Source: Thalassomonas actiniarum (GTDB lineage: Bacteria > Pseudomonadota > Gammaproteobacteria > Enterobacterales > Alteromonadaceae). From it: a stretch of DNA of 64,000 bases. Position numbers and translations under genes: made by a program. This document shows, in pieces, positions 1,692 through 14,957 of this stretch (its first letter is position 1; the number at the start of each line of letters is the position of its first letter). The notes beneath the pieces were generated by a model. It was not told the DNA's origin. It worked only from the letters and a program-made list of their open reading frames with translations, and ran no database searches. Location of the stretch: the NCBI RefSeq assembly GCF_000948975.2, contig NZ_CP059735.1, forward strand, positions 5,392,603 to 5,456,602, written 5' to 3'.

Positions 1692-2702
1692 ATGATGAAG
1701 TTTCAAGGCAGCCATATCCTTTCCGTCTCGCAATTTGACCGGGATGCAATCTCCAGAATATTAGAAGTTTCTGCCCGAATGGCTCCTTATGCCGCCAGAA
1801 AAAAACGCTGCCACGTGCTCGATGGCGCCATTTTAAATAATCTTTTTTTCGAACCCAGTACCCGTACCCGGGTCAGTTTCGGCACCGCCTTTAATTTGCT
1901 CGGCGGTTATGTCCGGGAAACCGTAGGCGAAGAAAATTCTTCGTTGAGTAAAGGCGAATCCCTGTTTGATACCGCCCAGGTGCTGAGCGGCTATTCCGAT
2001 GTTATCGCCATGCGCCACCCGAAAATTCTTTCTGTGGAAGAGTTTTCCAAAGGCAGCACGGTACCAGTGATCAACGGCGGCGACGGCGCCAATGAACATC
2101 CGACCCAGGCCTTGCTCGATTTGTTTACCATAGAGTCGGAAATGGCCCCTTTTGGCAAAGGACTCGACGATCTCAATATCGTACTGATGGGAGATCTTAA
2201 ACACGGCCGCACCGTGCATTCCCTGTCGAAACTGCTCAGCCTGTATAACAACCTGAAAATTACCCTGGTCTCCCCCAAGGCCCTGCAAATGCCGGATAAT
2301 GTCGTCTCTATCCTCAGCAATGCCGGTCACAGGGTGGAAATTACCGATGAATTAGGCGCCAACCTCGCCTGCGATGTGATTTACCAAACCCGGATCCAGC
2401 AGGAAAGATTTGCCGATAAAGCCGAAGCCGATTTATACCGCGGCCATTTCAGCTTAAACAAGCAGGTTTACCAGAAGTACTGTAAAGAAAATACCGTGAT
2501 CATGCACCCCTTGCCCAGAGACTCCCGTCCGGAAGCCAATGAGCTCGATGTTGACTTAGATGATATGCACAACCTGGCAATTTTCCGCCAGGCACAAAAC
2601 GGCGTTCTGGTACGCATGGCATTATTTGCCTTGACCCTGGGCGTGGAAGACAAATTAAGTGAATTTGAACAACCGGTTCACTGGTACACAAACAAAAATT
2701 AA
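1692..2702 (+). CDS. pyrB: Aspartate carbamoyltransferase catalytic chain (stand-alone type)
   Basis: Condenses carbamoyl phosphate with aspartate in the first committed step of pyrimidine synthesis, in the cytoplasm. The carbamoyl-phosphate loop 'FFEPSTRTRVSF' (about residues 53-64), 'HPTQALLDLFTI' and 'MHPLPR' are present. At 336 residues it is longer than the E. coli chain (311), with a C-terminal extension, and no pyrI follows; this is the type found in several marine gammaproteobacteria. Start is ATG at 1692, with a second ATG directly after it. hemL follows 12 bases downstream, so the two are probably co-transcribed. The leader carries the direct repeat noted separately. Confidence 0.95.
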   Translation: MMKFQGSHILSVSQFDRDAISRILEVSARMAPYAARKKRCHVLDGAILNNLFFEPSTRTRVSFGTAFNLLGGYVRETVGEENSSLSKGESLFDTAQVLSGYSDVIAMRHPKILSVEEFSKGSTVPVINGGDGANEHPTQALLDLFTIESEMAPFGKGLDDLNIVLMGDLKHGRTVHSLSKLLSLYNNLKITLVSPKALQMPDNVVSILSNAGHRVEITDELGANLACDVIYQTRIQQERFADKAEADLYRGHFSLNKQVYQKYCKENTVIMHPLPRDSRPEANELDVDLDDMHNLAIFRQAQNGVLVRMALFALTLGVEDKLSEFEQPVHWYTNKN

Positions 2703-2714
2703 AGCGAAATTATT

Positions 2715-3995
2715 ATGCAAAAATCTCAACAATTATTTGAAAATGCAAAAAATATCATTCCCGGTGGCGTAAACTCACCGGTGCGTGCCTTTAATGGTGT
2801 CGGTGGTACCCCTTGTTTCATAAAACGCGCCGAAGGCGCCTATATTTATGACGCCGATGATAAAGCCTATATCGATTATGTCGGCTCCTGGGGCCCGATG
2901 ATCTTAGGCCACAATCACCCGGCCATCCGTGAAGCGGTGATCGAAACCGCACAAAACGGCCTCAGCTTCGGCGCTCCCACCGAGCTGGAAATTACCATGG
3001 CGGAAAAAGTCCGTGAACTGGTGCCGTCGATGGAATCCCTGCGCATGGTCAGCTCCGGCACAGAAGCCACCATGAGCGCCATCCGTTTGGCCCGCGGTTA
3101 CACCGGCCGGGATAAAATCCTGAAGTTTGAAGGCTGCTACCACGGACACGCCGATTCCTTATTGGTCAAAGCCGGCTCGGGCGCCTTGACTATGGGCGTG
3201 CCAAATTCTCCGGGTATCCCGGAAGATTTTGCCAAACATACCCTGACCGTCAGCTACAACAAACTGGATGAAGTTAAAGCCATGTTTGAAGCGGTAGGCC
3301 AGGAAATCGCCTGTATTATCGTCGAGCCGGTTGCCGGCAATATGAACTGTATCCCGCCGGTGGAAGGCTTCCTTGAAGGCCTGCGTGAAATTTGCGACCA
3401 ATACTCCAGCGTGTTAATTTTTGATGAAGTAATGACAGGTTTTAGGGTTGCCTTGGGCGGCGCCCAGGCGTTTTACAATATCACCCCGGACCTGACCACT
3501 TTAGGTAAAGTGATCGGCGGCGGCATGCCGGTTGGCGCTTTTGGCGGTAAAAAAGCCATTATGGATTATATCGCCCCGGTAGGCCCGGTTTACCAGGCTG
3601 GTACCTTATCCGGCAACCCTATCGCCATGGCCGCAGGTCTGGCATCTCTGAATGAGTTATCTCAGGGAGATAAACACCAGCAGCTGGCCGATGCCACGGA
3701 AAAACTGGCGATGGGCTTTAAAGCTGCGGCAGAGCGTAACGGTGTCTCGTTAAGTATCAATTATGCCGGTGCCATGTTCGGCTTCTTCTTTACCGACGAA
3801 GAGCAGATCACTACCTATGAGCAGGCTACCGCCTGTGACGGTGAAAAATTCAAACGTTTCTTCCATTTGATGTTAGAGCAAGGGGTTTACCTGGCGCCTT
3901 CGGCGTTTGAAGCCAGCTTCTTGTCTACCGCCCATAGCGAAGAGATTTTAGATAAAACCCTGGCGGCTGCGGATAAGTGTTTCGCCCAGCTATAA
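2715..3995 (+). CDS. hemL: Glutamate-1-semialdehyde 2,1-aminomutase
   Basis: PLP-dependent aminomutase that converts glutamate-1-semialdehyde to 5-aminolevulinate, the C5-route precursor of haem. The 426-residue length equals that of E. coli HemL. Visible landmarks are the N-terminal '[12 protein letters not shown]', '[16 protein letters not shown]', the PLP-aspartate segment '[11 protein letters not shown]', and the Schiff-base lysine in '[18 protein letters not shown]'. It follows pyrB closely and is ended by a strong intrinsic terminator, so it is the last gene of that unit. Confidence 0.97.
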
Positions 3996-4007
3996 GCTTA
4001 ACCTTTT

Positions 4008-4043
4008 AAAAAAGGCAGACGAGTGAAATAGTTTGCCTTTTTT
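4008..4043 (+). terminator. Intrinsic terminator after hemL
   Basis: A 13-bp stem (one G-T pair) from AAAAAAGGCA to TGCCTTTTTT with a 10-base loop, 13 bases after the hemL stop. The T run on the + strand makes a classical Rho-independent terminator; the matching A run could also serve the other strand. Confidence 0.9.
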
Positions 4044-4217
4044 ATCTGATATGTCCCGTTCAGAGATAGGTTGACATGAAGTATGAAACTTAATAATCCC
4101 CCCTTACCTGTTCACTCGGTAATTGGATTCACCCAAAAAGCTTAAGCACTAAAAAAAGCCTGAAATAGCTAAATCATCAAGCAATGGAAGGAACCACTAT
4201 AAATTAAAGGAAATAGA

Positions 4218-4607
4218 ATGATTAAGTCATTACTTGCAAATATATATTTAGCCTCTGTCTTTAAGCTCTTAAGCGTAAAGTATTTATTAGAGATCGTTAA
4301 AGGTAATCAAACCAAGTATTTTTGGCACCAGGTAGAAAAATACGCAAATCAATTCAAACGTAAAGATGATGTTTTTTTAGTAGACAGCCGTTTTTTATAT
4401 GACCATTATTTTTTAAAGCAGCATGTCAGGCGCTTTGCGATTAACAGCGGTGATGATGTATATGAAGCTTTAAGAAATTACATCGCAATAAGTGGTGAAC
4501 ACCACGAGTTTTTTATGAGCGGCAATGATATTAAACCACTGAACTCTGAGCCTGTTATTTTACTGAAAGAGGCTTTTGAAAAGCTATACAGCTTAAAACC
4601 GAGCTAA
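4218..4607 (+). CDS. Hypothetical protein, 129 aa
   Basis: Not recognised. A good ribosome-binding site (AAAGGAAATAG) sits just before the ATG. The N-terminus is mildly hydrophobic, and the rest is charged and rich in Lys, Tyr and Phe with no clear motif. Base composition is AT-rich compared with hemL. It lies at the edge of the accessory island, convergent with an Rhs remnant that begins about 15 bases past its stop. It could be a cargo gene of the island. Confidence 0.6.
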   Translation: MIKSLLANIYLASVFKLLSVKYLLEIVKGNQTKYFWHQVEKYANQFKRKDDVFLVDSRFLYDHYFLKQHVRRFAINSGDDVYEALRNYIAISGEHHEFFMSGNDIKPLNSEPVILLKEAFEKLYSLKPS

Positions 4608-4621
4608 AGAAAAATTACAGA

Positions 4622-4821
4622 TTTACCGACCTGGGTAATAGCGGTAACATAGCCGAACAGGTTAACCGCCAGGGTGGCGGTGACATTTTCCGGCGAGGTG
4701 ATGGTTAGCGGCTGCTGATAGGCCGGTTCGCCATAGGCCAGGTAGCGGGTAGTAGTGGCGTTGCCGCGCCCGTCGGTGATGCTTTGCATTACCTGGCGCT
4801 GTAGGCCGTCATAGGTAAAGC
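4622..4821 (-). pseudogene. Rhs core fragment (displaced, internally deleted)
   Basis: Read on the minus strand, this 200-base stretch encodes 'TDGRGNATTT', 'AYGEPAYQQPLTITSPENVT', 'LAVNLFG' and 'VTAITQ', closely matching the intact Rhs gene at 8722-8975. The fragment is exactly 54 bases shorter. The missing segment lies between two copies of CGTCGGTGA (8871-8879 and 8925-8933 in the intact gene), so it looks like a deletion between short direct repeats. The surrounding open frame runs back to 5026 but crosses an intrinsic terminator and non-Rhs sequence, so it is not a plausible gene. This is best read as a scar of earlier recombination at the Rhs locus. Confidence 0.8.
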
Positions 4822-4870
4822 TGACACAGAATTTTGAACGCCCTCTATCAAATTTCACAGCACCACCATG

Positions 4871-4963
4871 TAGTGGCGCTGCGATAAATTGCACACCCGG
4901 CTGGCAAGAGGTGATCACTTCTACTGCGATAGTCTGCTTGAGTTGCTGGTGAAGTTGCTCATT
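4871..4963. repeat. 93-base repeat, copy A
   Basis: Clearly related, almost without gaps, to 6023-6116. Shared blocks include GTGATCACTTCT, AACACCC/CACACCC and TTGCTCATT. Copy A lies between the Rhs fragment and the terminator of the 103-residue gene. Its nature is unknown. It is probably a remnant of a duplicated cassette or an old toxin-gene end. Confidence 0.65.
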
Positions 4964-4982
4964 TTCAGATAGCCAAACACGT

Positions 4983-5008
4983 AAAAAAATGCCTCGTAAA
5001 AACGAGGC
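4983..5008 (-). terminator. Intrinsic terminator of the 103-aa gene
   Basis: On the minus strand, GCCTCG / CGAGGC with a 6-base loop is followed by ATTTTTTT. It begins 10 bases after the stop of the gene at 5019-5330 and separates it from the Rhs fragment. Confidence 0.9.
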
Positions 5009-5018
5009 AAATACTACA

Positions 5019-5330
5019 TTAATCAAATTTTGGCGAGTTCCTTTCTCGTCTCTGTTTGTCTAATTCAAAAAACTCCCAGTCTGTTTGTTCATCTTTCCGT
5101 TCAGCCCTTTCTTCAGGCTCTAACTCGGCCATAATTTCTAAACTTTTATCATCTTCCAATAAATGACTAACATGCACTAAATGGCATTCTTCAGCCTCAT
5201 CAGCCTGTTCATCACCACAAAAAAACTGCCAATCACTATCAGGGTCTCTAATCACTAGTTTTACAGGCCTTTCTTTTTTGAACACATGAGGACAAGTATA
5301 AACTCCATAATCTCGTCTAAATTTTTTCAT
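5019..5330 (-). CDS. Small acidic protein, candidate orphan immunity protein
   Basis: A 103-residue, strongly acidic protein (many Asp/Glu and Trp) with no signal peptide. I recognise the general look ('CPHVF...RPVKLVIRDPDSDWQFFCG...HLVHVSHLL') of small conserved proteins but cannot give a family name. It has its own terminator and lies between an Rhs fragment and two DUF4265-like genes, all on the same strand downstream of a complete Rhs toxin gene. By position it could be an immunity gene whose toxin has been lost. The function is inference; the coding call is good. Confidence 0.7.
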   Translation of the reverse strand: MKKFRRDYGVYTCPHVFKKERPVKLVIRDPDSDWQFFCGDEQADEAEECHLVHVSHLLEDDKSLEIMAELEPEERAERKDEQTDWEFFELDKQRRERNSPKFD

Positions 5331-5391
5331 AGGCTTATGACTTTTTTGTTTTTCAAATTGTTTCTTTAATACAATAAATTACGCCCTATCC

Positions 5392-5465
5392 ATACCACTA
5401 CAACAATATTTTTGGAACACAGCAAAAAATAGCGGAATCTATCTTGTCATTATTGTTAGTGGTAT
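5392..5465. repeat. Spaced inverted repeat
   Basis: Arms ATACCACTACAACAAT (5392-5407) and ATTGTTAGTGGTAT (5452-5465) are complementary except for two extra bases in the first arm, and enclose 44 bases. This could be the ends of a small lost element or the stem of an RNA. No transposase is present. Confidence 0.5.
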
Positions 5466-5471
5466 TAGATC

Positions 5472-5501
5472 CAAAAAATAAAGTCTCACAATTATTGTGA
5501 G
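5472..5501 (-). terminator. Intrinsic terminator of the first DUF4265-like gene
   Basis: On the minus strand, CTCACAAT / ATTGTGAG forms a perfect 8-bp stem with a one-base centre, followed by a T-rich run (ACTTTATTTTTT). It lies 40 bases after the stop at 5542. Confidence 0.8.
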
Positions 5502-5541
5502 GCTGTTTTCCTTAAAGTAAATTTAGAGAGCCTTGTCAATC

Positions 5542-5982
5542 TTAGTGCCGCATGGAAGGATAATCTGCAAGGATAATTTCTCTATCACAGTAACTGCTTA
5601 TCATATTATATACTTTTTCCATACTAATTTTTTCTGGCACATTAACTCCGTAGTATCCTTCGGGCTTCCCACCTTCTATATCACACCCCAGGTTTCTAAA
5701 TTTATCAACAATCTCATCATCATATGTTTCATTTTGAACAACAATCCAAATGGTACTATTTTCAGATTTTTGATTAATACTAAGTATGCGGTGTCTTTTA
5801 TCTTTTAGTTCCTTAGTTTCAACTACATCATTATATGAAATCCCTTCAATAAACATGGAAATATTTTTGATTTGTAACCCTCCATCAACCATTAAGCACC
5901 ATAATGCCTCAGTATCTATAGGACCATCCCCTATTTCATCATCGTTCAATTGAAAGCTAATCTTAATTCTATTTTCTTTCAT
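5542..5982 (-). CDS. DUF4265-like protein, candidate orphan immunity protein
   Basis: A 146-residue protein when started at the ATG at 5982, which has GGAAATAATTGC in front. An upstream in-frame start at 6048 would run into the 94-base repeat and has no better site. The pattern 'ENSTIWIV...FRNLGCDIEGG...EGYYGVNVP...ADYPS' is that of DUF4265 proteins. It is a divergent paralogue of the gene at 6316-6750. It has its own terminator and lies downstream of the Rhs toxin gene and its adjacent DUF4265-like gene. I infer an immunity role, perhaps to a former or sibling toxin. No enzyme motif was seen. Confidence 0.75.
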   Translation of the reverse strand: MKENRIKISFQLNDDEIGDGPIDTEALWCLMVDGGLQIKNISMFIEGISYNDVVETKELKDKRHRILSINQKSENSTIWIVVQNETYDDEIVDKFRNLGCDIEGGKPEGYYGVNVPEKISMEKVYNMISSYCDREIILADYPSMRH

Positions 5983-6022
5983 GCAATTATTTCCATTAAA
6001 GATCCCACTTCTTTTTCCTTGA

Positions 6023-6116
6023 TAGTGACACCGCAATAAATAGAACACCCGACTGGTTGAGGGTGATCACTTCTGCTGCTATTCCCTGATCAAATTACAG
6101 GGTAAAATTGCTCATT
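6023..6116. repeat. 94-base repeat, copy B
   Basis: Second copy of the repeat at 4871-4963. It lies just upstream (minus-strand sense) of the DUF4265-like gene at 5542-5982. The rest of the 5983-6315 gap holds only the terminator of the next gene and AT-rich sequence. Confidence 0.65.
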
Positions 6117-6247
6117 TATTTACAGCTATGCAGTCATAAAAATTTAAATGACCTCCATTTACCCTGTTCTTCATTTCAATTCATTTATTGAAAACCTTAC
6201 TATGTAAAAATGAAATACATGCATGAGCCATTGAATGTAAAAAGAGT

Positions 6248-6273
6248 AAAGCCTTGCTATTTTACAAGACTTT
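6248..6273 (-). terminator. Terminator after the Rhs-linked DUF4265-like gene
   Basis: Minus-strand stem AAAGTCTTG / CAAGGCTTT (9 bp with one G-U) with an 8-base loop, followed by ACTCTTTTT. It would end the FG-GAP / Rhs / DUF4265 transcript. Confidence 0.7.
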
Positions 6274-6315
6274 GAAGAAAGGTTTAAGGGGTTACTTATT
6301 ACTTTTCTTAAGTAG

Positions 6316-6750
6316 CTATGTATCTTCCTTTATACATGGATAATCCACCATAATTTTTTCATCGTTAATATAGGGGTCAAGTAAACCATAAAGTACTTTC
6401 AATATCGATGACGATGGTATATTGATTGAATAATAATTATCAACAACCCCTCCTTCTACAGCACACTTTAAATCTTTTATCTGCTTAATAATTATAGGAA
6501 TATCATTATCATCGTTGATATATATCCAAATTGTGCTATTCGGCGATTGATTAACGATTTTTATTATGTCAAATGAATTATCATCCAGCTTTTTAATCTG
6601 AACCACATCGTCAAATGCAATGTTATCAATAAAAAAGGGAGCATTTTTCACTTTAAATGTGTTGCCATCTTTTTCTCCCCAAAGATTTTCATACTTAACT
6701 GGCGGCCAGCCATCCTCTATACCTTTGATTACAAACTTTATTTTTTCCAT
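6316..6750 (-). CDS. DUF4265-like protein, probable immunity to the Rhs HNH toxin
   Basis: A 144-residue protein if started at the ATG at 6750 with GGTGAT upstream; a TTG at 6765 is an alternative start. The 'NSTIWIYIND...IKDLKCAVEGG...NYYSINIP...MVDYP' pattern matches DUF4265 proteins and the paralogue at 5542-5982. It begins 30 bases after the Rhs stop, the usual position for the cognate immunity gene of an Rhs toxin. It shares the AT-rich composition of the toxin tip, which suggests they arrived together. Immunity is inferred from position, not from a known DUF4265 activity. Confidence 0.75.
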   Translation of the reverse strand: MEKIKFVIKGIEDGWPPVKYENLWGEKDGNTFKVKNAPFFIDNIAFDDVVQIKKLDDNSFDIIKIVNQSPNSTIWIYINDDNDIPIIIKQIKDLKCAVEGGVVDNYYSINIPSSSILKVLYGLLDPYINDEKIMVDYPCIKEDT

Positions 6751-6780
6751 TAAATATATCACCAATTAAATAAATTAATA

Positions 6781-9700
6781 TTATTCTCGTTTTTCTCTTT
6801 CTTCGCGACGTTTTTTTGCACGCTCTTTATTTTCTTCCTTAGTTTTTTCTTTATGACATTTTCCTGCACATAATATTTGTCCATTTGTATCAGCATCATC
6901 TGCCCCCCCATCAGCCAAAGGCTCTATATGATCTGCTTGACCTTCATTATCAGGAACCTTCTCTCCCTTTTTACGTCTTTTTCCTTCTTGAACTTCTACA
7001 CCACACCCATCACAAACAAGGTCACCTTTATTTTTTTCTCGATTCTTATCTTTTACTTTTTGACCAAACTTACGGTCTCTCTTTCTTTTTTCGAGAGCCT
7101 TTTTTGTTCCTTCAACACCATGATAAGCAGCACCTATTGTAACGACTACTCCTGCAGCACAAGCAAGAGGTCCACCAGCACATGCAGCTAAAGCAGCATT
7201 ATTACCATCCGGATCGACATACTTATACGGATTATTTTTGGCATAAACATAGCGATTAAAGTTGTGAATATTAGTCATGTTCACAGGATCATTCGAGTAA
7301 AAACGACCTATCACGGGATCATAATACCGTGCCTGCATATAACTCAGCCCCAAGTCGGTATCAAATTTATGCCCGGTATAACCCACCTCGTCGTTGGCCG
7401 CTTCAATCGTTTCCCCAAAAGGCTTAAAGTTCATCACGCTGTTATAGTCGGCGTCATCGCTTTTGGTTACCACCCCGGTGCCTTGCTTGGCCACCAGCTT
7501 ATCCCCCAGGAAGATATAATTGATGCCGCCCTTATCGGTTTCCCGGTAAAGCAAACGGCCCGATTGGCTGTACAGGCTGTAGCTGGTGCCTTTGCTGTCG
7601 CTGGTTTTTATGCGGCGGTTATGGCCGTCGTACAGGTAGTCGTTGCTGCTGTTATCCTTGGTTGAGCGTGTCATCTGCCCGGCCAGGTTGTAGTCAAAAC
7701 TGCGCTTGCCGTTATCGGTAACATTACCTCGGCTGTTGTAGCTGCCGCTTTTTGCAAAGTCATAACCTTCGCTGCCGCTGCCGGTAACACTGCTTAACCG
7801 CATGTTGCTGTTATAGCCATAACTCAGGCTCGACGGGTTGAGTATACTGGTGTTGCTGTAGCTGCGGATATTACCTAAGCCGTCATAGCTTAAGGCGCTG
7901 CTGCCGATACCGGCGAGGTTACCTGTGGTGGCGGTTAACCGGTCCAGGCCGTCATACGTTAACGCACTCAGGCTGAAATTGCTGTCAACACCGTTGGTGA
8001 TGTGGGTAATGTTGTTGTTATTGTCATAACCATAACTCAGGCTGACCTTGCTGGTTGAGCCCAGGTAATCACGGATTTGTGACGGCAGCTGGCGGCTGTT
8101 GAGGGTGGTTTTATGATTAACGCCGTTGCCGTAGGTAAAACTGTTGATGCTGCCGCCCGGGTAGTAGCTTGCCCCGGGTTTAACAAAGTTATACACGGTA
8201 TCATCCGCCTGGGTCCAGGTGGCTTGTGTCGCCTGGCCAAAACCGTTGGGAGCAAAGTCTACCGCCAGTGCGTTACCGGGGTATTCAAGGCGGCTGAGGC
8301 TGCCTAAGGCATCATAACCATAGGCCAGGGTAAAGGTTTTGCCGTCGAGGGTCAGGCTTTCCTTATCGAGCAGGCGCTGGCTGTTATAGCTATACTCCTG
8401 GCGGAAACCGCCGCCGGTAATGGTTTTAATATCGCCGTTGTTGTTGACGGTATAGGTGCGTGTGGCCGTGCCGTCGCCGTAGCTGAGGCTGCGCTGGTTG
8501 CCGTGGTTGTCATAAGCAAAGCTGACTTTATCTTTGGCATCGGCGCTGGTGTTACAGCTGGTATTGCCGGTGGCGGTTTGGCCTTGTGCCTGCCACAGAA
8601 TTTCACCAACATCATTTAAGCTCATGACGGTGGTGCCGACATCATCACGTTTAATCTGGCATAAACGCTGGCGGCTGTCGTAGGCACGGTATTCTGTTTG
8701 GCTGATATCAAGCGCGCCGTTTTTACCGGCCTGGGTAATGGCGGTAACATTGCCGAACAGGTTCACCGCTAAAGTCGTGGTGACATTTTCCGGCGACGTA
8801 ATGGTCAGCGGCTGCTGATAGGCCGGTTCGCCATAGGCCAGGTAAGTTGTGGTGGTAGCGTTGCCGCGCCCGTCGGTGACCCGCTGCTTGTTATCGGCGA
8901 GGTAGTTAGTGGTGACTGTGCCGCCGTCGGTGATGGTTTGTGTTAGCTGGCGCTGCAGGCCGTCATAGGTAAAGCGGGTACCGGCGCTGCTGATTGTGGC
9001 AGTAGACGGGAACGACTGGAACGTCGGCTTGTTGTAGATGTTGTAGTTGCTGTTTTGATAAATCGTGCTGTTGCCGTCAGTTGTTTGTACCCGGGTCGGA
9101 CGGAATAAGCTGTCATAGGTGGTGGTTGTGGTCAGCCTGGCACTGTCGCTACAGGCGGTTTTGCCGGCATTTAAGGTACAGCGTTTGACCGTGCGCACCG
9201 GCTGGTTATTACTCAGGCCGCCGCTATAGCTCCAGCTCAGCAGGGTGTCAGCCCAGGCTGTGTCTACCGGGTCGATATAGGCAATGCGCCCTAACTTATC
9301 GTAGCCATAGTGGGTGGTGTTGCCTTCAAAGTCTTTGGTTTGAGTGACCCAGCCGTTGTCGTCGACGGTGCGCGATACTGAGATAGTACTGCTGCTATAG
9401 GGGGCGGGCAGGGTAATGGTTTGCGCCTGGCCGCGTTTATAGCTGCTAAAGCTTTGGTAGCGGTTGCCGCTGCCGCTTGTTAGCGCCCGGTTGTATTCGA
9501 TTTTTTTGATATTGCCGTCGCTGTGATAGGCCGAGTAGTACTTTTGCCAGGTGCCGAAGGATTTTTCATATTTGGGCAGCAAGGCATAGCTGGCATGGCT
9601 GTTGGGGTAGTACTCAATTTCACTGACCGTGGTGTAGCTGCTGTCGTCGCTGCTCAGTGCCGTGGTGGTCGGCTGGTTGATGAGCCAGCGCGTGGTATCG

Positions 9701-11886
9701 TGCATAAAGCCTTGTTTGCGATACTGTACCCGGCTGGCTGCTTCAAGCGAGTCGCCGATAAAGCTGACAGTTTTTTCTGCCTGGTAGTAGTCGTTAAATG
9801 CCTGGTATAAGGTCTGATAGGTGGTGGTCTCCTGTGCCCCGTTATCGGCATCGGCGGCAAAGATTTGCTGGCGCTCTTTTACCTTGTGTCTGACACATTC
9901 GGTTGCTTCACGGTTGGGCTGGTGCATTTGGTTGGAGCCGACGCAGGGGCCTTTTTCAAACTCGGGTAATACCCGCTTGAGCAGGGTGCTGCGGTCGGTA
10001 TCGTAATAGCTGGTGGCCAACGGGGCATTTTCCAGCCAGTCATAGCGGCGGCTGAAATAATGCCTGGTGCTGGAATTATCCGGGGCTTTGACACTGGTCC
10101 ATTTGATATCACCGGCATCTACGCCAGCAGGCAGAGAGAAAGGGGCCGTGGTAAAACCGGGTTTGGTTTCCCCTTCAAACGCGCCAAAATGGGCAGAATA
10201 GTTATAATCCCAGGTTGAGGTGGCGGCGCCCGGGATGGTCAGGGTTTTCTTATTCAGGGCGATGACGTTATAACAACGGGCATATAAATAAGAGTTGGTA
10301 TCCGGGTTGGGCTGCTCTTCCCCGATAATATGCTTGGGCACTTCGGTGCGGCCATGGCCGACCTGGGTGAGCCAGTATTGTCCCTTGGCCCCGTCCGGGT
10401 GGGTTATTTCAACATGGGGACCGGGAGCGCTGATAATGGCACCGCACATACTGGTCTTATCATAGAAGCTTTCGCTATAGTTTTCCGGACTCATCCTTGC
10501 CAGCAGACTATCGTTGATAATCCAGCTTTTATTATCAGGCCGGGTCACCTTGCTTAAACGCCTGTCGGTATAGTCATAACTCCAGGTACGGTTATTGGCG
10601 CTGATGGTTTTGATCACTGTGCCGCCTTCATAGCCGAAAGTGACATTACGGCCGTCATTGGCGCTGATTTTTGTTAACAGGGCGTTGCTGTTATAGTCAA
10701 AGGCTAACCAGTTGCCATGCTTATCTTCGATGCGGCTTACCAGCATATAGGTATTAACCAGGTCAAAGATGGTGCAATGCTGTATACATTGGCCGGTATC
10801 CGGATCCAGTACCGATACCGGGGCATTGGGCAGTGATGCCGGCGGTGTTAAATTAAGCTCGGCTTTACTGACAACTTTTGATGGGGTCAGGCGCAGTTGC
10901 TCAAAATAATAGCGGGTGCCGTCGGGGGTGGTGACTTTAAATCCTTCATAGCCGTTATTGCTGTCGGCAGGTGTGATGCAGTCTATTTTCCAGTTATTGG
11001 CGGTCACCCGGTAATGGGAGCCGTCACCTTCTGTTTTTTCCAAAATAGAGGTGCTGCCTTTTCCGGGAATATAAATGGTTTCTCCGCTCCAGTATTCACT
11101 GGCGGGCAAACTGGCCTTGCCACCGCCATCAGCCGAACTCGGGGTTAAGTAGCTGGTGCAGGCATCGCCGTCGTACCAGCCGCTGGGATAGCGATCCCTT
11201 GTTCTGTCTTTGGCCATAGTGGTGCTGATATGGGGTAAATCCAGGCTCCAGCTGCCAAATTCCCGCGGCGAGGCATAATGCATTTGCGCACCAGCCATTT
11301 TCCGGGCAATGCTGATGTCAGGGCCGTTACCTGGGAGTACCAAATCGGTTTGGGCGAAGCTTAATGCTCCTGTGCTTAAGTTTATTTGTTCGCCAATCAG
11401 ATCGCTGGTTTCCGGGGTCACTTCAAAATCGATCTTTAGGCGCTCCAACACATTAATGCCCTGTCCGATACGTTCCTGTCCGCTGTTGTCCGTTGGCAAC
11501 TCTCCTTCTTCTTCTGAAGTTGTTGGATCGAATACAACTGGCGGCAAAAGCTCGGTGAGCGGCGGTAAAAGCCCGGTGTTCGGCGCCATAACCGGCAGTG
11601 TTTCAGATAACGGCCGGTCAATGGTGACGTTTTCAATGACGGTCGCCATATCGACCGTGGCCGCCTGGCTGTGAACGGGCAGCGCCAGCAAAAACGCATA
11701 AGTCAGCTGGCCGAGCCATGTTATTTTCCTGTGTTGTCCATGAGGCTCCCGGGTTGGGGCATGGGCGCTTGTTTGTTTTTTTTGTCTCATCTGCTTACTT
11801 GGTATTGGCTGTAAATTGTCTTTATGGAGCGAGGCAGTGTCCTGTACGGATAATGCCCGGCTGTTGTTTGTGGTTAGTGTTTTCAT
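6781..11886 (-). CDS. Secreted Rhs protein with C-terminal HNH nuclease tip
   Basis: A 1701-residue Rhs/YD-repeat protein, expected to form a shell that encloses a toxic tip. The start chosen is the ATG at 11886, overlapping the preceding stop (TGATG); a GTG one codon earlier is possible. A polar, basic extension of ~54 residues precedes a hydrophobic segment ending 'LPVHSQAA', so this looks like a long Sec signal. YD repeats follow. The Rhs core closes with 'GLSYMQARYYDPVIGRFYSNDP' and 'NPYKYVDPDGN'. The last ~139 residues (bases 6781-7200) differ sharply, being AT-rich and lysine-rich, with a Cys-x2-Cys pair (~1625/1628), 'DHIEPLADGG' (~1652), 'NGQILC' and 'CHKEKT' (~1668-1682). This is an HNH, zinc-binding endonuclease pattern. 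No VgrG, PAAR or T6SS genes are nearby. The usual 'HTDxLGSPVAETD' element is absent where expected, between 'GDKLVAK' and 'FKPFGE'. Confidence 0.9.
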   Translation of the reverse strand: MKTLTTNNSRALSVQDTASLHKDNLQPIPSKQMRQKKQTSAHAPTREPHGQHRKITWLGQLTYAFLLALPVHSQAATVDMATVIENVTIDRPLSETLPVMAPNTGLLPPLTELLPPVVFDPTTSEEEGELPTDNSGQERIGQGINVLERLKIDFEVTPETSDLIGEQINLSTGALSFAQTDLVLPGNGPDISIARKMAGAQMHYASPREFGSWSLDLPHISTTMAKDRTRDRYPSGWYDGDACTSYLTPSSADGGGKASLPASEYWSGETIYIPGKGSTSILEKTEGDGSHYRVTANNWKIDCITPADSNNGYEGFKVTTPDGTRYYFEQLRLTPSKVVSKAELNLTPPASLPNAPVSVLDPDTGQCIQHCTIFDLVNTYMLVSRIEDKHGNWLAFDYNSNALLTKISANDGRNVTFGYEGGTVIKTISANNRTWSYDYTDRRLSKVTRPDNKSWIINDSLLARMSPENYSESFYDKTSMCGAIISAPGPHVEITHPDGAKGQYWLTQVGHGRTEVPKHIIGEEQPNPDTNSYLYARCYNVIALNKKTLTIPGAATSTWDYNYSAHFGAFEGETKPGFTTAPFSLPAGVDAGDIKWTSVKAPDNSSTRHYFSRRYDWLENAPLATSYYDTDRSTLLKRVLPEFEKGPCVGSNQMHQPNREATECVRHKVKERQQIFAADADNGAQETTTYQTLYQAFNDYYQAEKTVSFIGDSLEAASRVQYRKQGFMHDTTRWLINQPTTTALSSDDSSYTTVSEIEYYPNSHASYALLPKYEKSFGTWQKYYSAYHSDGNIKKIEYNRALTSGSGNRYQSFSSYKRGQAQTITLPAPYSSSTISVSRTVDDNGWVTQTKDFEGNTTHYGYDKLGRIAYIDPVDTAWADTLLSWSYSGGLSNNQPVRTVKRCTLNAGKTACSDSARLTTTTTYDSLFRPTRVQTTDGNSTIYQNSNYNIYNKPTFQSFPSTATISSAGTRFTYDGLQRQLTQTITDGGTVTTNYLADNKQRVTDGRGNATTTTYLAYGEPAYQQPLTITSPENVTTTLAVNLFGNVTAITQAGKNGALDISQTEYRAYDSRQRLCQIKRDDVGTTVMSLNDVGEILWQAQGQTATGNTSCNTSADAKDKVSFAYDNHGNQRSLSYGDGTATRTYTVNNNGDIKTITGGGFRQEYSYNSQRLLDKESLTLDGKTFTLAYGYDALGSLSRLEYPGNALAVDFAPNGFGQATQATWTQADDTVYNFVKPGASYYPGGSINSFTYGNGVNHKTTLNSRQLPSQIRDYLGSTSKVSLSYGYDNNNNITHITNGVDSNFSLSALTYDGLDRLTATTGNLAGIGSSALSYDGLGNIRSYSNTSILNPSSLSYGYNSNMRLSSVTGSGSEGYDFAKSGSYNSRGNVTDNGKRSFDYNLAGQMTRSTKDNSSNDYLYDGHNRRIKTSDSKGTSYSLYSQSGRLLYRETDKGGINYIFLGDKLVAKQGTGVVTKSDDADYNSVMNFKPFGETIEAANDEVGYTGHKFDTDLGLSYMQARYYDPVIGRFYSNDPVNMTNIHNFNRYVYAKNNPYKYVDPDGNNAALAACAGGPLACAAGVVVTIGAAYHGVEGTKKALEKRKRDRKFGQKVKDKNREKNKGDLVCDGCGVEVQEGKRRKKGEKVPDNEGQADHIEPLADGGADDADTNGQILCAGKCHKEKTKEENKERAKKRREEREKRE

Positions 11887-14789
11887 CACAGTACATTCCC
11901 CTGTTCATCGGTTTCGGCGACGGGGGAGCCTAAGTTGTCGGTGTGGATGAAAATAACGGCGGGGGATGCTTTTGCCGCTTTCACGTCAATACTAAAGGGG
12001 GGCAAATAGGCCCTGGACTTGCCGTCACTGACGGAAATACTGATATTGCTGAAAGTACCGATATTGCCGTCCGTCGGTGTGCCGCTTAATGTGCCGGTTG
12101 AGGCAGTAAAGCTTAACCAGGCCGGTTGGTTGCCAATGCTGAAAGTTAAGTTGTCGTTATCGCCATCGCTTGCCGTTGGTGTGAACTGGTAAGCTTCCCC
12201 CGGCGTTGCGGTATTGGCAGGTGTGCCGCCAATAACCGGAAGCTTGTTAGTTGGTGCGCTGACGGTGATATTGATGTCGTCGGTGGATGAATACGTCCCG
12301 TCATTGTCTTGGGTGCGATAATAAATGGTGTGGTTACCGGCAGATAAAGTACCAAAATTTCGACTGTAAGGACTGCTGTTGTCGACCTGCCAGCTGCCGG
12401 CATTAAGCTTAAATTCTACCTGGGCTATGCTGCCGTCGCTGTCGCTGGCACTGGCAGTAGCAATGACATTTTGGCTGGTCAGGTAACTGGCATTATTTGA
12501 GGGACTTAGCGCCCTGACGGTCGGCTTTTGGTTAGCTGTTACGGTAATATTACGGTACGCCGTTGTAGAGTAACCGCCAAGGTTATCCTTAGCACGATAG
12601 GCGATGGTATGGCTGCCAGCACTGAGGGGACCGAAGTTTTTGCTGTAAGGACTGCTGCTGTCGGCCTGCCAGCTGCCGGAGTCGAGTTTAAATTCCACCT
12701 GGGCGATGCTACCGTCGCTGTCGCTTGCACTGGCGCTGGCACTGATGCTTTGCGTGCTGAGGTAGCTGGCGTTATCCGAGGGCGTTAACGGACTGACAAC
12801 CGGTTTAATGTTTTGTATCGTAAAAGTCCTGCTCGGATAGGGACTGGTACTATAGCCGCCGTCATTATCTTTGGCGCGGTAATAAATGGTATGGCTGCCG
12901 ACGCTAAGCCTGCCGAAATTTTTACTGTACGGGCTGCTGCTGTCAACCTGCCAGCTGCCGGAGTCGAGTTTAAATTCCACCTGGGTCACGCTGCCGTCGC
13001 TGTCGCTGGCACTGGCGGAGGCGCTGATACTTTGATTGGACGGGTAACTGGCGTTATTCGAGGGGCTTGACGGGCTGACCACCGGCTTTTTATTCTCGAC
13101 GGTAACCGTTGTCGTGCCCCAGTCGCCGCAAGGCAATTGCGGATTACAGGCGCGGACATAAAAAGTGTAAGTGCCCGCCGTCGTCAGTGACGGGGTGGTT
13201 GCTCTGGTGGTGCTGCTGCCGCTGACGTGGTTCATGGTGGATTGCGAAATCACAGCGCCTGTGGGGGTTTTATATTTTCGCTCATAATAACCCCCCGTCC
13301 AGATAATACGGCTTGTGGTTGGCCAGGAAATGGTTGCGCTATTTCCCCTGGCAATAGTTGTCGGCGAAGCCGAAGGGCTGGCTCGATAAGGGGAGTCATA
13401 GGCATGTACCTTTTGCCAAGGGCTTAAACCGCTGCAAATATCCGCTTCAAAACAGGCATCATATTTTATATATTGATAGCCGTGTGTGCTTCTTAGGGTA
13501 ATTGCTTTTGTCCGCCCGGAGTAAAGGGCGCCGGCAAAGTCGTAACTGCGGTTATCATTACTGACATATACCTGGTAATACTGGCCGCTGCGTAAAGAAG
13601 GAAAAGTAACGGTGATTCTGCTGCCAATAGGCCAATAGGTACCGTTGACAACAGGTGCCGAGGTGGGGGTTGGCGGAGGGGTGCAATGCCCCTGGTCCGG
13701 AGCTATCCCGCAGGGCAGTTCGGGCTCGGTAAGTCTCTGCAAGCCGGGCGTGGCTTCGACCTTTGCATGGACGCCGTCTTTTTCTGCTTCACTCCCTTGC
13801 CAGGGCGCACAGGTTGTGCCAGTTCCCCCTTCGGCGGAAAAATACATTTGATCACAGATATTATCGATATCATCCGTATCTTCATTTGCGGCAGATAAAT
13901 GTATCTCCCCTTTTTCGTCTATGCCGCCGGGCATATTGTTTAAGCGGATAATATCTAAGGTATTGTCATGATTGGCATTGCCAACCCAGACATTAAAGTC
14001 ATTGCTGTTCCAGTCTTTTCCCTGCAATTTGTCACTGATTTTACGGCTTTGCTGTAAGTGCCCGGCCCCATTGGCCAACACCAGATAATGGGATTGGTGC
14101 TTTTTTTTCGCCAGGGCAAAGACATCATCTCTGCCGTCCTGATTGAAATCGCGGATGATGAGCTTTTCACTGCGTTTTTTCCCCCATTTGACGTTTTTGT
14201 CGATTTCCTGGGCGATAACGAGCTGGCCGCTGTCATCACTGTGCATCAGGTAATGCTGGTGTTTATCCTGCGACAAGGCCAATAAATCCTGCTTGCCGTC
14301 ACCGTTAAAGTCGCCGGGATAAAAGTCAAAATCCTGCTCTTTTGCCAGCCAGGGAAGTTCGGTTGCGCTATAACGCAGTGACGGTTCAAGGGAGAAGTCT
14401 ATGCCCTGGTCTGTGCCTGAGTACACCCATATTTGCTGCGCTTGGGGCAATACCAGTAAAACATCGTCATGGCCATCGCCGTTAAAATCTGCCGGGACAA
14501 ATTGTGTCTGTCCAACAAACCAGGACTGCTGGTTGATTAATGCGGGTAAGCGGGCCGGGATCGGTGCTGGCTCGTCACTTAATCCTGAGTTTTTTGTTCC
14601 CGGGAAAAAAAGCCCCGGCTGGTTTTCAGCTAACGGTTGCAGCAGTAAATCCCGAAGGCCGTCGCCGTTAATATCGACATGGTGGGGTTGATAGTCTTGT
14701 GCTTGCCAGTTGAACGGTTCCTGTGCGGCTAAAGCCGTGGGCAGAAAACACAGGCAACAGGGCAATATTTTTCTAAAAAGTTGACGCAT
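11886..14789 (-). CDS. Secreted FG-GAP/VCBS and Ig-like repeat protein, Rhs partner
   Basis: A 967-residue exported protein starting at the ATG at 14789 (AGGA before it), followed by a signal peptide ending 'LPTALAA'. About residues 25-290 hold five FG-GAP-like calcium motifs of the type DxNxDGxxD. A cysteine-containing linker and a fibronectin-like part follow. Three very similar Ig-like repeats come next ('SASASDSDGS...VEFKLDSGSWQ...SPYSKNFG'), then a 'putative Ig' domain ('TPGEAYQFTPTASDGDNDNLTF'). The final residues are HTDNLGSPVAETDEQGNVL and then the stop, a motif normally found inside Rhs proteins. The stop overlaps the Rhs start (TGATG), so translation is probably coupled. FG-GAP plus Rhs is the order seen in TcB/SpvB-like toxin proteins; here it is split into two genes. 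The partner role is inference. Confidence 0.85.
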   Translation of the reverse strand: MRQLFRKILPCCLCFLPTALAAQEPFNWQAQDYQPHHVDINGDGLRDLLLQPLAENQPGLFFPGTKNSGLSDEPAPIPARLPALINQQSWFVGQTQFVPADFNGDGHDDVLLVLPQAQQIWVYSGTDQGIDFSLEPSLRYSATELPWLAKEQDFDFYPGDFNGDGKQDLLALSQDKHQHYLMHSDDSGQLVIAQEIDKNVKWGKKRSEKLIIRDFNQDGRDDVFALAKKKHQSHYLVLANGAGHLQQSRKISDKLQGKDWNSNDFNVWVGNANHDNTLDIIRLNNMPGGIDEKGEIHLSAANEDTDDIDNICDQMYFSAEGGTGTTCAPWQGSEAEKDGVHAKVEATPGLQRLTEPELPCGIAPDQGHCTPPPTPTSAPVVNGTYWPIGSRITVTFPSLRSGQYYQVYVSNDNRSYDFAGALYSGRTKAITLRSTHGYQYIKYDACFEADICSGLSPWQKVHAYDSPYRASPSASPTTIARGNSATISWPTTSRIIWTGGYYERKYKTPTGAVISQSTMNHVSGSSTTRATTPSLTTAGTYTFYVRACNPQLPCGDWGTTTVTVENKKPVVSPSSPSNNASYPSNQSISASASASDSDGSVTQVEFKLDSGSWQVDSSSPYSKNFGRLSVGSHTIYYRAKDNDGGYSTSPYPSRTFTIQNIKPVVSPLTPSDNASYLSTQSISASASASDSDGSIAQVEFKLDSGSWQADSSSPYSKNFGPLSAGSHTIAYRAKDNLGGYSTTAYRNITVTANQKPTVRALSPSNNASYLTSQNVIATASASDSDGSIAQVEFKLNAGSWQVDNSSPYSRNFGTLSAGNHTIYYRTQDNDGTYSSTDDINITVSAPTNKLPVIGGTPANTATPGEAYQFTPTASDGDNDNLTFSIGNQPAWLSFTASTGTLSGTPTDGNIGTFSNISISVSDGKSRAYLPPFSIDVKAAKASPAVIFIHTDNLGSPVAETDEQGNVL
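12250..13090 (-). repeat. Three tandem Ig-like coding repeats
   Basis: Three units of about 250-280 bases within the FG-GAP protein gene share long blocks such as CTGCCGTCGCTGTCGCTGGCACTG and AAAATTT(C/T)(G/T)ACTGTA(A/C)GG. The third-position variation is low, so the duplication is recent or kept homogeneous by recombination. Repeat number may vary between strains. Confidence 0.75.
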
Positions 14790-14957
14790 AGTTATCCTGG
14801 AAAATAAAAAAGTAAAATCAGGGATAACGTGCATTTACTGCATACTCAACGAGTATAAACTGCCATTGTCCCTAACAGCTCAAGTTTATGTTTTTCAGCG
14901 CGTACGCTAACACAAACGAAAATAAAACATTAATTACAAGCAATTACAGCAAAGGTT

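Follow-up and report, generated by a model that had tools for sequence, protein, structure and literature searches.

The stretch of DNA analyzed here (the window) comprises 64,000 nucleotides of the Thalassomonas actiniarum contig NZ_CP059735.1 (positions 5,392,603 to 5,456,602), and carries on its minus strand three consecutive genes, in the order A (11886-14789), B (6781-11889) and a DUF4265 gene (6316-6750; PF14085, E-value 2.3e-15). Gene A lies within an open reading frame (ORF) spanning 11886-14834, with a likely ATG at 14789, and would encode a secreted protein of 967 amino acids combining FG-GAP (E 6e-13) and immunoglobulin-like (Ig) domains, the latter matched by Big_7 (E 3.8e-32, three stretches) and He_PIG (E 1.4e-10) among Pfam and NCBIfam profiles. 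Gene B encodes an apparently secreted Rhs protein of 1702 amino acids if read from a GTG start, or 1701 from the ATG at 11886, with Rhs repeats (PF05593, E 1.1e-10) and a Rhs-associated core (TIGR03696, E 5e-21). At the junction of A and B the sequence is CTGTGATGAAA, so that the stop codon of A overlaps one GTG and one ATG of B, and 30 bases separate the stop codon of B from the ATG of the DUF4265 gene, confirming the coupled three-gene unit and the coordinates given in the preliminary description. The signal peptides that this description assigned to both large proteins correspond to hydrophobic, signal-like N-terminal stretches, read from the sequence with no signal-peptide program score and preceded in B by about 55 residues. 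Its statement that type VI secretion genes do not occur nearby also stands, insofar as none was seen by eye among the listed window ORFs, no systematic scan having been made; a profile search likewise finds no PAAR match in B. Several type VI loci are present in the genome, none of them in the window, though both Rhs components have signal-like N-termini, and the six VipB matches found elsewhere in the same genome all lie more than 1 Mb away.

In other Rhs proteins, the last hairpin of the barrel wall is found immediately before the core. PF03527, the profile for this hairpin, has no match in B at E-values up to 1, and an in-house motif model (19 positions, derived from 26 sequences; a shuffled third of ORFs reached at most 4.4 bits, against a cut-off of 10) detects nothing in B before the core. 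At the corresponding site (residues 1475-1485; 7435-7467, minus strand), B runs from GDKLVAKQGTGVV through a short unconserved linker into MNFKPFGETIE, where relatives with an intact core (loci L063, L068 and L077) read through HTDxLGS. The C-terminal tail of A, VIFIHTDNLGSPVAETDEQGNVL (11889-11957, minus strand), follows the pattern HTDxLGSPxxET, which is part of PF03527. The profile itself matches residues 962-981 of 982 below its cut-off (E 0.033, model positions 3-22 of 38), and the motif model scores the tail at 43 bits. Since B holds a linker where its intact relatives hold HTDxLGS, the hairpin is missing from B, and it is A that ends in it, a split more specific than the one previously described. 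Downstream of the vacant site, the Rhs-associated core or C-terminal plug of B (7204-7434, minus strand) extends from the PFGE box to two DP motifs (7282-7296 and 7204-7218), both present in the sequence, of a presumed aspartyl autoprotease, a role drawn from portions of PMC8636562 and PMC8765631. Judged by its sequence, the window operon is thus a Rhs polymorphic toxin with Rhs/YD repeats and a Rhs-associated core whose wall hairpin resides on another protein.

Complementary loss and gain of the hairpin

Relatives of the operon were gathered from searches of 147, 345, 369 and 395 genomes, in overlapping sets, together with 77 named loci. Rhs ORFs of at least 900 amino acids with a core pattern were counted in 173 loci, leaving 96 different ones after deduplication, of which motif scoring placed 70 without and 26 with the hairpin; inspection by eye moved L245 and L153 to the hairpin-bearing group and set L019 and L170 aside as another type, yielding 66 hairpin-less and 28 hairpin-keeping proteins. 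A core-free neighboring ORF bearing the hairpin accompanies 59 of the 66 hairpin-less Rhs proteins, lying upstream on the same strand in 57 cases and divergently in two (L064 and L224), and no upstream neighbor of this kind is seen beside any of the 28 hairpin-keeping proteins, one of which (L158) has a downstream fragment. With one locus at a contig end (L056) omitted, the contrast of 59/65 against 0/28 gives a Fisher p of 2.9e-18, a value overstated by the shared ancestry of the 94 rows; when sequences are clustered by barrel identity with a 60% threshold, a partnered member occurs in 38 of the 42 hairpin-less clusters, and 17 clusters keep the hairpin. The motif is also specific, occurring in 92 of 5064 core-free ORFs of at least 60 amino acids across the 173 loci, and 60 of the 61 motif ORFs in deduplicated loci belong to a locus with a hairpin-less Rhs protein. 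On a tree of a barrel stretch that excludes the junction, obtained by a quick search and including some long rows, seven changes of state are needed, at least four of them on supported branches, and partnered hairpin-less Rhs proteins extend beyond the family of T. actiniarum to Pleionea mediterranea (L255, Pleioneaceae) and Exilibacterium tricleocarpae (L238, Cellvibrionaceae).

The position of the break is equally complementary. In 52 of the 59 pairs (including L126, whose partner has no box) the PFG box is found in the Rhs protein only, the partner ending before it, and in the remaining seven the box is found in the partner only and is absent from the Rhs protein (as with HTDVLGSVILETDASGNVKKRTEYKPFGESKDN in L062); in no pair is it doubled or missing altogether. 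Such placement is expected of a split protein and not of a sorting tag. Short conserved C-terminal tags are a known feature of secreted adhesin-like proteins, and the tail of A could in principle be one of them, serving a secretion or surface-attachment machine and resembling the Rhs hairpin only secondarily, a proposal that would also suit a motif-ending gene in L192 not followed by any Rhs core gene in the stretch examined. A tag of this kind should nevertheless not be missing upstream of all 28 hairpin-keeping Rhs proteins, resemble PF03527, or lengthen by a PFG box exactly where the Rhs protein has none, and we regard this explanation as very unlikely.

The tail is kept by selection at the protein level. 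Over 1540 pairs of 56 tails, the mean proportion of synonymous differences (pS) is 0.82, and hence saturated, with a mean proportion of nonsynonymous differences (pN) of 0.22. Among six Thalassomonas copies, pN ranges from 0 to 0.21 in the motif and from 0.12 to 0.31 in the preceding 35 codons, and it is lower in the motif than in the flank in each of the 14 differing pairs, the flanks being compared unaligned. This pattern bears on the idea that the tail of A plays no role as a protein and is instead a scar, or a hook for DNA recombination, left by the insertion of a Rhs gene into an Ig-hairpin-plug-tip gene. The order of the start of A, Rhs barrel and plug fits the insertion of a barrel gene, a gene of the required type exists in the same genome (L019), and Rhs loci recombine often, with relics present nearby. 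A scar should decay, however, yet here the peptide has been retained while synonymous sites reached saturation; moreover, the motif persists across partners of differing length and domain content, including those of the two divergent pairs and one that carries it at its opposite end, and break points agree in all 59 pairs. The scar explanation is accordingly unlikely, if the least implausible of the alternatives considered here.

Partners differ widely outside the hairpin. Their length ranges from 134 to 1597 amino acids, the longest being truncated where its locus begins. Domains were scanned in 20 of the 59; most of these carry FG-GAP, Ig, cadherin, fn3, InlB-type, chitinase-N or MAM domains, and six show no Pfam match. 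On a simple scale, a hydrophobic N-terminal stretch is present in 51 of the 59, and of the rest three (L125, L206 and L238) start at an end of the sequence covered. One- or four-base overlaps with the Rhs gene are common and might recall a single chain produced by frameshifting at the TGATG overlap, with the hairpin acting in cis; against this, spacing varies between -71 and +738 bases among the 57 same-strand pairs, two pairs are divergent and both window proteins begin with their own signal-like stretch, making frameshifting hardly credible. Partner arrangements include further variants. In Thalassotalea loyana (L188), two motif-bearing partners of 407 and 156 amino acids lie upstream of one hairpin-less Rhs gene, and in L074 (also L190) a short motif-ending ORF is followed by a hairpin-less Rhs gene broken into several ORFs (1778-7054). 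Arrays of short Rhs core-plus-tip ORFs are also seen, with 11 in L065 and three in L064, the latter beside one full-length hairpin-less Rhs gene with a divergent partner.

A proposed two-chain cage and its known counterparts

In an AlphaFold2 model of an intact relative, the hairpin forms a strand-turn-strand with a predicted local distance difference test score (pLDDT) of 89-93 and is the last confidently predicted hairpin of the wall; the same strands are drawn at the end of A with a pLDDT of about 40. Together with the sequence patterns above, this suggests a model in which one Rhs toxin cage is encoded on two secreted polypeptides. B would fold as a Rhs barrel that also contains the autoprotease plug and the HNH tip, but its wall would stop one hairpin short of the point where the chain bends inward as the plug, so that B alone would present an open edge. 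The adhesin-like FG-GAP/Ig protein A would bear the hairpin as a flexible C-terminus and, after presumed Sec export of both proteins, this tail would enter the open edge of the barrel at the plug end, completing the wall and tying the adhesin to the toxin cage, with the DUF4265 protein remaining inside the cell and shielding the producer from the HNH nuclease. Hairpin donation explains why B has lost the piece and A has gained it, why the break points agree, why the tail is under selection and why partners can be so diverse, and we consider it quite probable that A docks on B in this manner, closing the cage and tethering the adhesin.

Several observations weigh against this model. The AlphaFold2 model of A is poor overall (predicted template modeling score 0.33, from seven sequences). 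The tree offers four independent supported pairs, in which the partner follows the state of the Rhs protein 3.5 times out of 4 on average, without a single opposing case, four pairs being too few for significance, and the seven pairs with the later break all fall in one part of the tree, pointing to one or few events. No partner is detectable for seven of the 66 hairpin-less Rhs proteins: in L056 the contig ends 2.8 kb upstream, in L069 a partner-like ORF retains the last strand only, in L208 there are short Ig-like ORFs from which the motif is missing, and in L162, L163, L164 and L212 no partner was seen in the 3.8-5.7 kb examined upstream. In L126, the 144-amino-acid partner (3929-4363) is permuted, with the hairpin placed right after the signal peptide and not at the C-terminus, and in Bowmanella denitrificans (L192) a second motif-ending ORF of 441 codons (12652-13977), possibly an orphan partner, follows a complete pair at a distance of about 2.7 kb, and no Rhs core gene comes after it in the 4.5 kb covered. 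The four hairpin-less loci with nothing partner-like upstream would agree with an ordinary two-gene Rhs toxin, in which A is an independent adhesin and B functions on its own despite a somewhat shorter wall. That loss and gain are so closely paired, and that the break points match, speaks against such independence, which appears very improbable, and hairpin donation from A to B remains the preferred explanation.

The proposed cage invites comparison with several known systems. Tc toxins are the known case of a two-chain cage: TcB and TcC form it from two polypeptides, one with FG-GAP-like domains and the other with a variable tip at its C-terminus, and the break between them falls in mid-barrel. 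The window operon resembles this arrangement in its proposed two-chain cage, its FG-GAP-like domains and its C-terminal variable tip, but differs in that almost all of the barrel belongs to one chain, to which the other would add a single hairpin. Of the split TcB-like arrangement proposed in the preliminary description, the split of a cage therefore survives in spirit and membership in TcB does not: SpvB has no match in A or B at E-values up to 1, TcdB_toxin_midN reaches 19.3 bits in A against a cut-off of 24.8, and the break lies near the border of barrel and plug. A search for the TcA translocator (PF18276) gave no match in the T. actiniarum genome, nor any in control genomes. In chaperone-usher pili, donor-strand complementation has one subunit supply the strand missing from another. 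The likeness to the present case lies in a piece supplied in trans; the folds are unrelated, and in the window the hairpin would close a toxin cage.

A type VI-delivered Rhs effector was considered and rejected on the signal-like N-terminus of B, its lack of a PAAR match and the absence of type VI genes among the window ORFs inspected by eye. The same N-terminal features distinguish B from type VI-linked Rhs proteins (RhsA, Rhs1/Tre23, Tse5, Tse15 and RhsP), from which the window operon also differs by placing the last wall hairpin on a separate protein; in Rhs1, as described in parts of PMC8636562, wall and plug belong to one chain. Bacterial teneurin-like proteins, whose hallmark in the relevant portions of PMC13018210 is an FN-plug, an NHL propeller and a YD shell in a single chain, likewise join adhesion domains and shell where the window operon distributes them over two chains, and a profile search yields no NHL match for either A or B. 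The portions of PMC13018210, PMC8765631, PMC8636562 and PMC3482391 consulted do not describe any Rhs cage whose wall hairpin is carried by a second polypeptide, and a literature search, with most subscription journals and preprints outside its scope, returned no recognizable report of split, trans-complemented, donor-strand or two-gene Rhs proteins; within that scope, none was returned for such a system involving DUF4265 either.

The toxin tip, its putative immunity gene and trailing cassettes

Behind the plug, B ends in an AT-rich tip (6784-7203, minus strand). The compositional drop reported earlier is reproduced by windowed GC content, which falls from 0.53 (7401-7800) through 0.42 (7001-7400) and 0.35 (6601-7000) to 0.29 (6401-6800). 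An HNH-type nuclease domain, also proposed earlier, is supported by a PF01844 match above its cut-off (residues 1645-1685, E 7e-5, 23.3 bits against 21.4); the tip further matches the ZRANB3 chain 5mkw (E 1.4e-5), and the Cys, His and Asn residues of the HNH motif can be seen in it by eye, supporting its prediction as an HNH nuclease toxin. The same genome contains a second full operon (L018) in which A is 99% and B 89% identical, with a different tip. Up to the core, the two B proteins share 92% of residues (1411/1534), against 31% (38 of 122 aligned) in the tips, which we read as unrelated, in support of the earlier suggestion that the tip has been swapped on a conserved barrel.

Assignment of the DUF4265 protein as a putative immunity protein against the HNH tip is likely, as the preliminary description had anticipated, because the two recur together elsewhere. 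In L265, from another genus, the HNH tip is 65% and the DUF4265 protein 67% identical to those of the window, on a barrel that is only 46% identical, and in L267 an HNH tip is directly followed by a DUF4265 gene, at 33% and 25% identity. This link was surveyed from DUF4265 matches rather than from HNH tips. The family occurs in nine of 196 genomes of the family of T. actiniarum, with 11 matches in total, two of them in the window; of the nine outside the window operon, those in L265 and L267 lie behind a Rhs tip, and the other seven lack a Rhs core in the flanking 1.5 kb on each side, so that DUF4265 proteins are evidently not confined to an immunity role.

Further minus-strand genes trail the operon. 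Another DUF4265 gene (5542-5982) shares 33% identity with the first, has no toxin tip of its own and is a probable orphan immunity gene, and an Imm33-like gene (5019-5330; E 8.6e-5, below the Pfam cut-off), also with no tip of its own, is a possible one. A relic of a Rhs barrel (4604-4856), 86% identical to residues 1001-1057 of B, lies inside the ORF 4604-5026. Two stretches that look similar by eye (about 6030-6100 and 4880-4960, minus strand), with the pattern gaagtgatcacc...gggtgt...tttat, precede the second DUF4265 gene and the Rhs relic and may be a repeat or the trace of a mobile element. In L018 (11674-15492 and beyond), the gene behind the tip is followed by a 330-amino-acid ORF that by eye resembles a REP-type transposase, an orphan Rhs core bearing a third tip and further small genes, forming a cassette array. 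With their relic, orphan core-tip and additional immunity-like genes, the window and L018 both resemble known orphan Rhs tip/immunity cassettes.

Cartridge-type loci and implications

A second type of split is seen in seven loci examined, its frequency being uncounted: L019, in the same genome, and L067, L071, L078, L281, L283 and L284. These feature a core-less barrel gene followed, at junctions ranging from a 4-base overlap to a 52-base gap, by a cartridge, a protein with a signal-like start that combines motif, core and tip. In L019 the cartridge is an Ig-hairpin-plug-tip protein of 2335 amino acids, with a long repeat region ahead of the motif; the remaining six are proteins of about 300 amino acids whose motif comes after the signal-like stretch. 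L281 (3669-14533) shows a barrel gene, a hairpin-plug-tip gene, a small gene, a barrel-end repeat and a second, partly masked hairpin-plug-tip ORF, an arrangement resembling a duplicated cartridge.

The hairpin-donor and cartridge forms raise the possibility, which we put forward tentatively and with clearly less confidence than hairpin donation itself, that marine Gammaproteobacteria build their Rhs cages in modular fashion from chains that are exported separately and join outside the cytoplasm. If so, the toxin would be loaded after export, contrary to the idea that a Rhs toxin becomes enclosed during folding of its own chain, and the cartridge form would demonstrate that a toxin can be made on a different chain from its cage. 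On the side of the hairpin-donor form, a hairpin supplied in trans would constitute a simple docking rule linking one kind of toxin cage to many adhesins, and would explain why otherwise different partners have a single short C-terminus in common. The hairpin would also provide a sequence mark for finding partner genes, including those for short proteins with no Pfam match. If correct, hairpin donation would bear on how secreted Rhs toxins that lack a type VI system stay attached to the cell and are directed at their targets.

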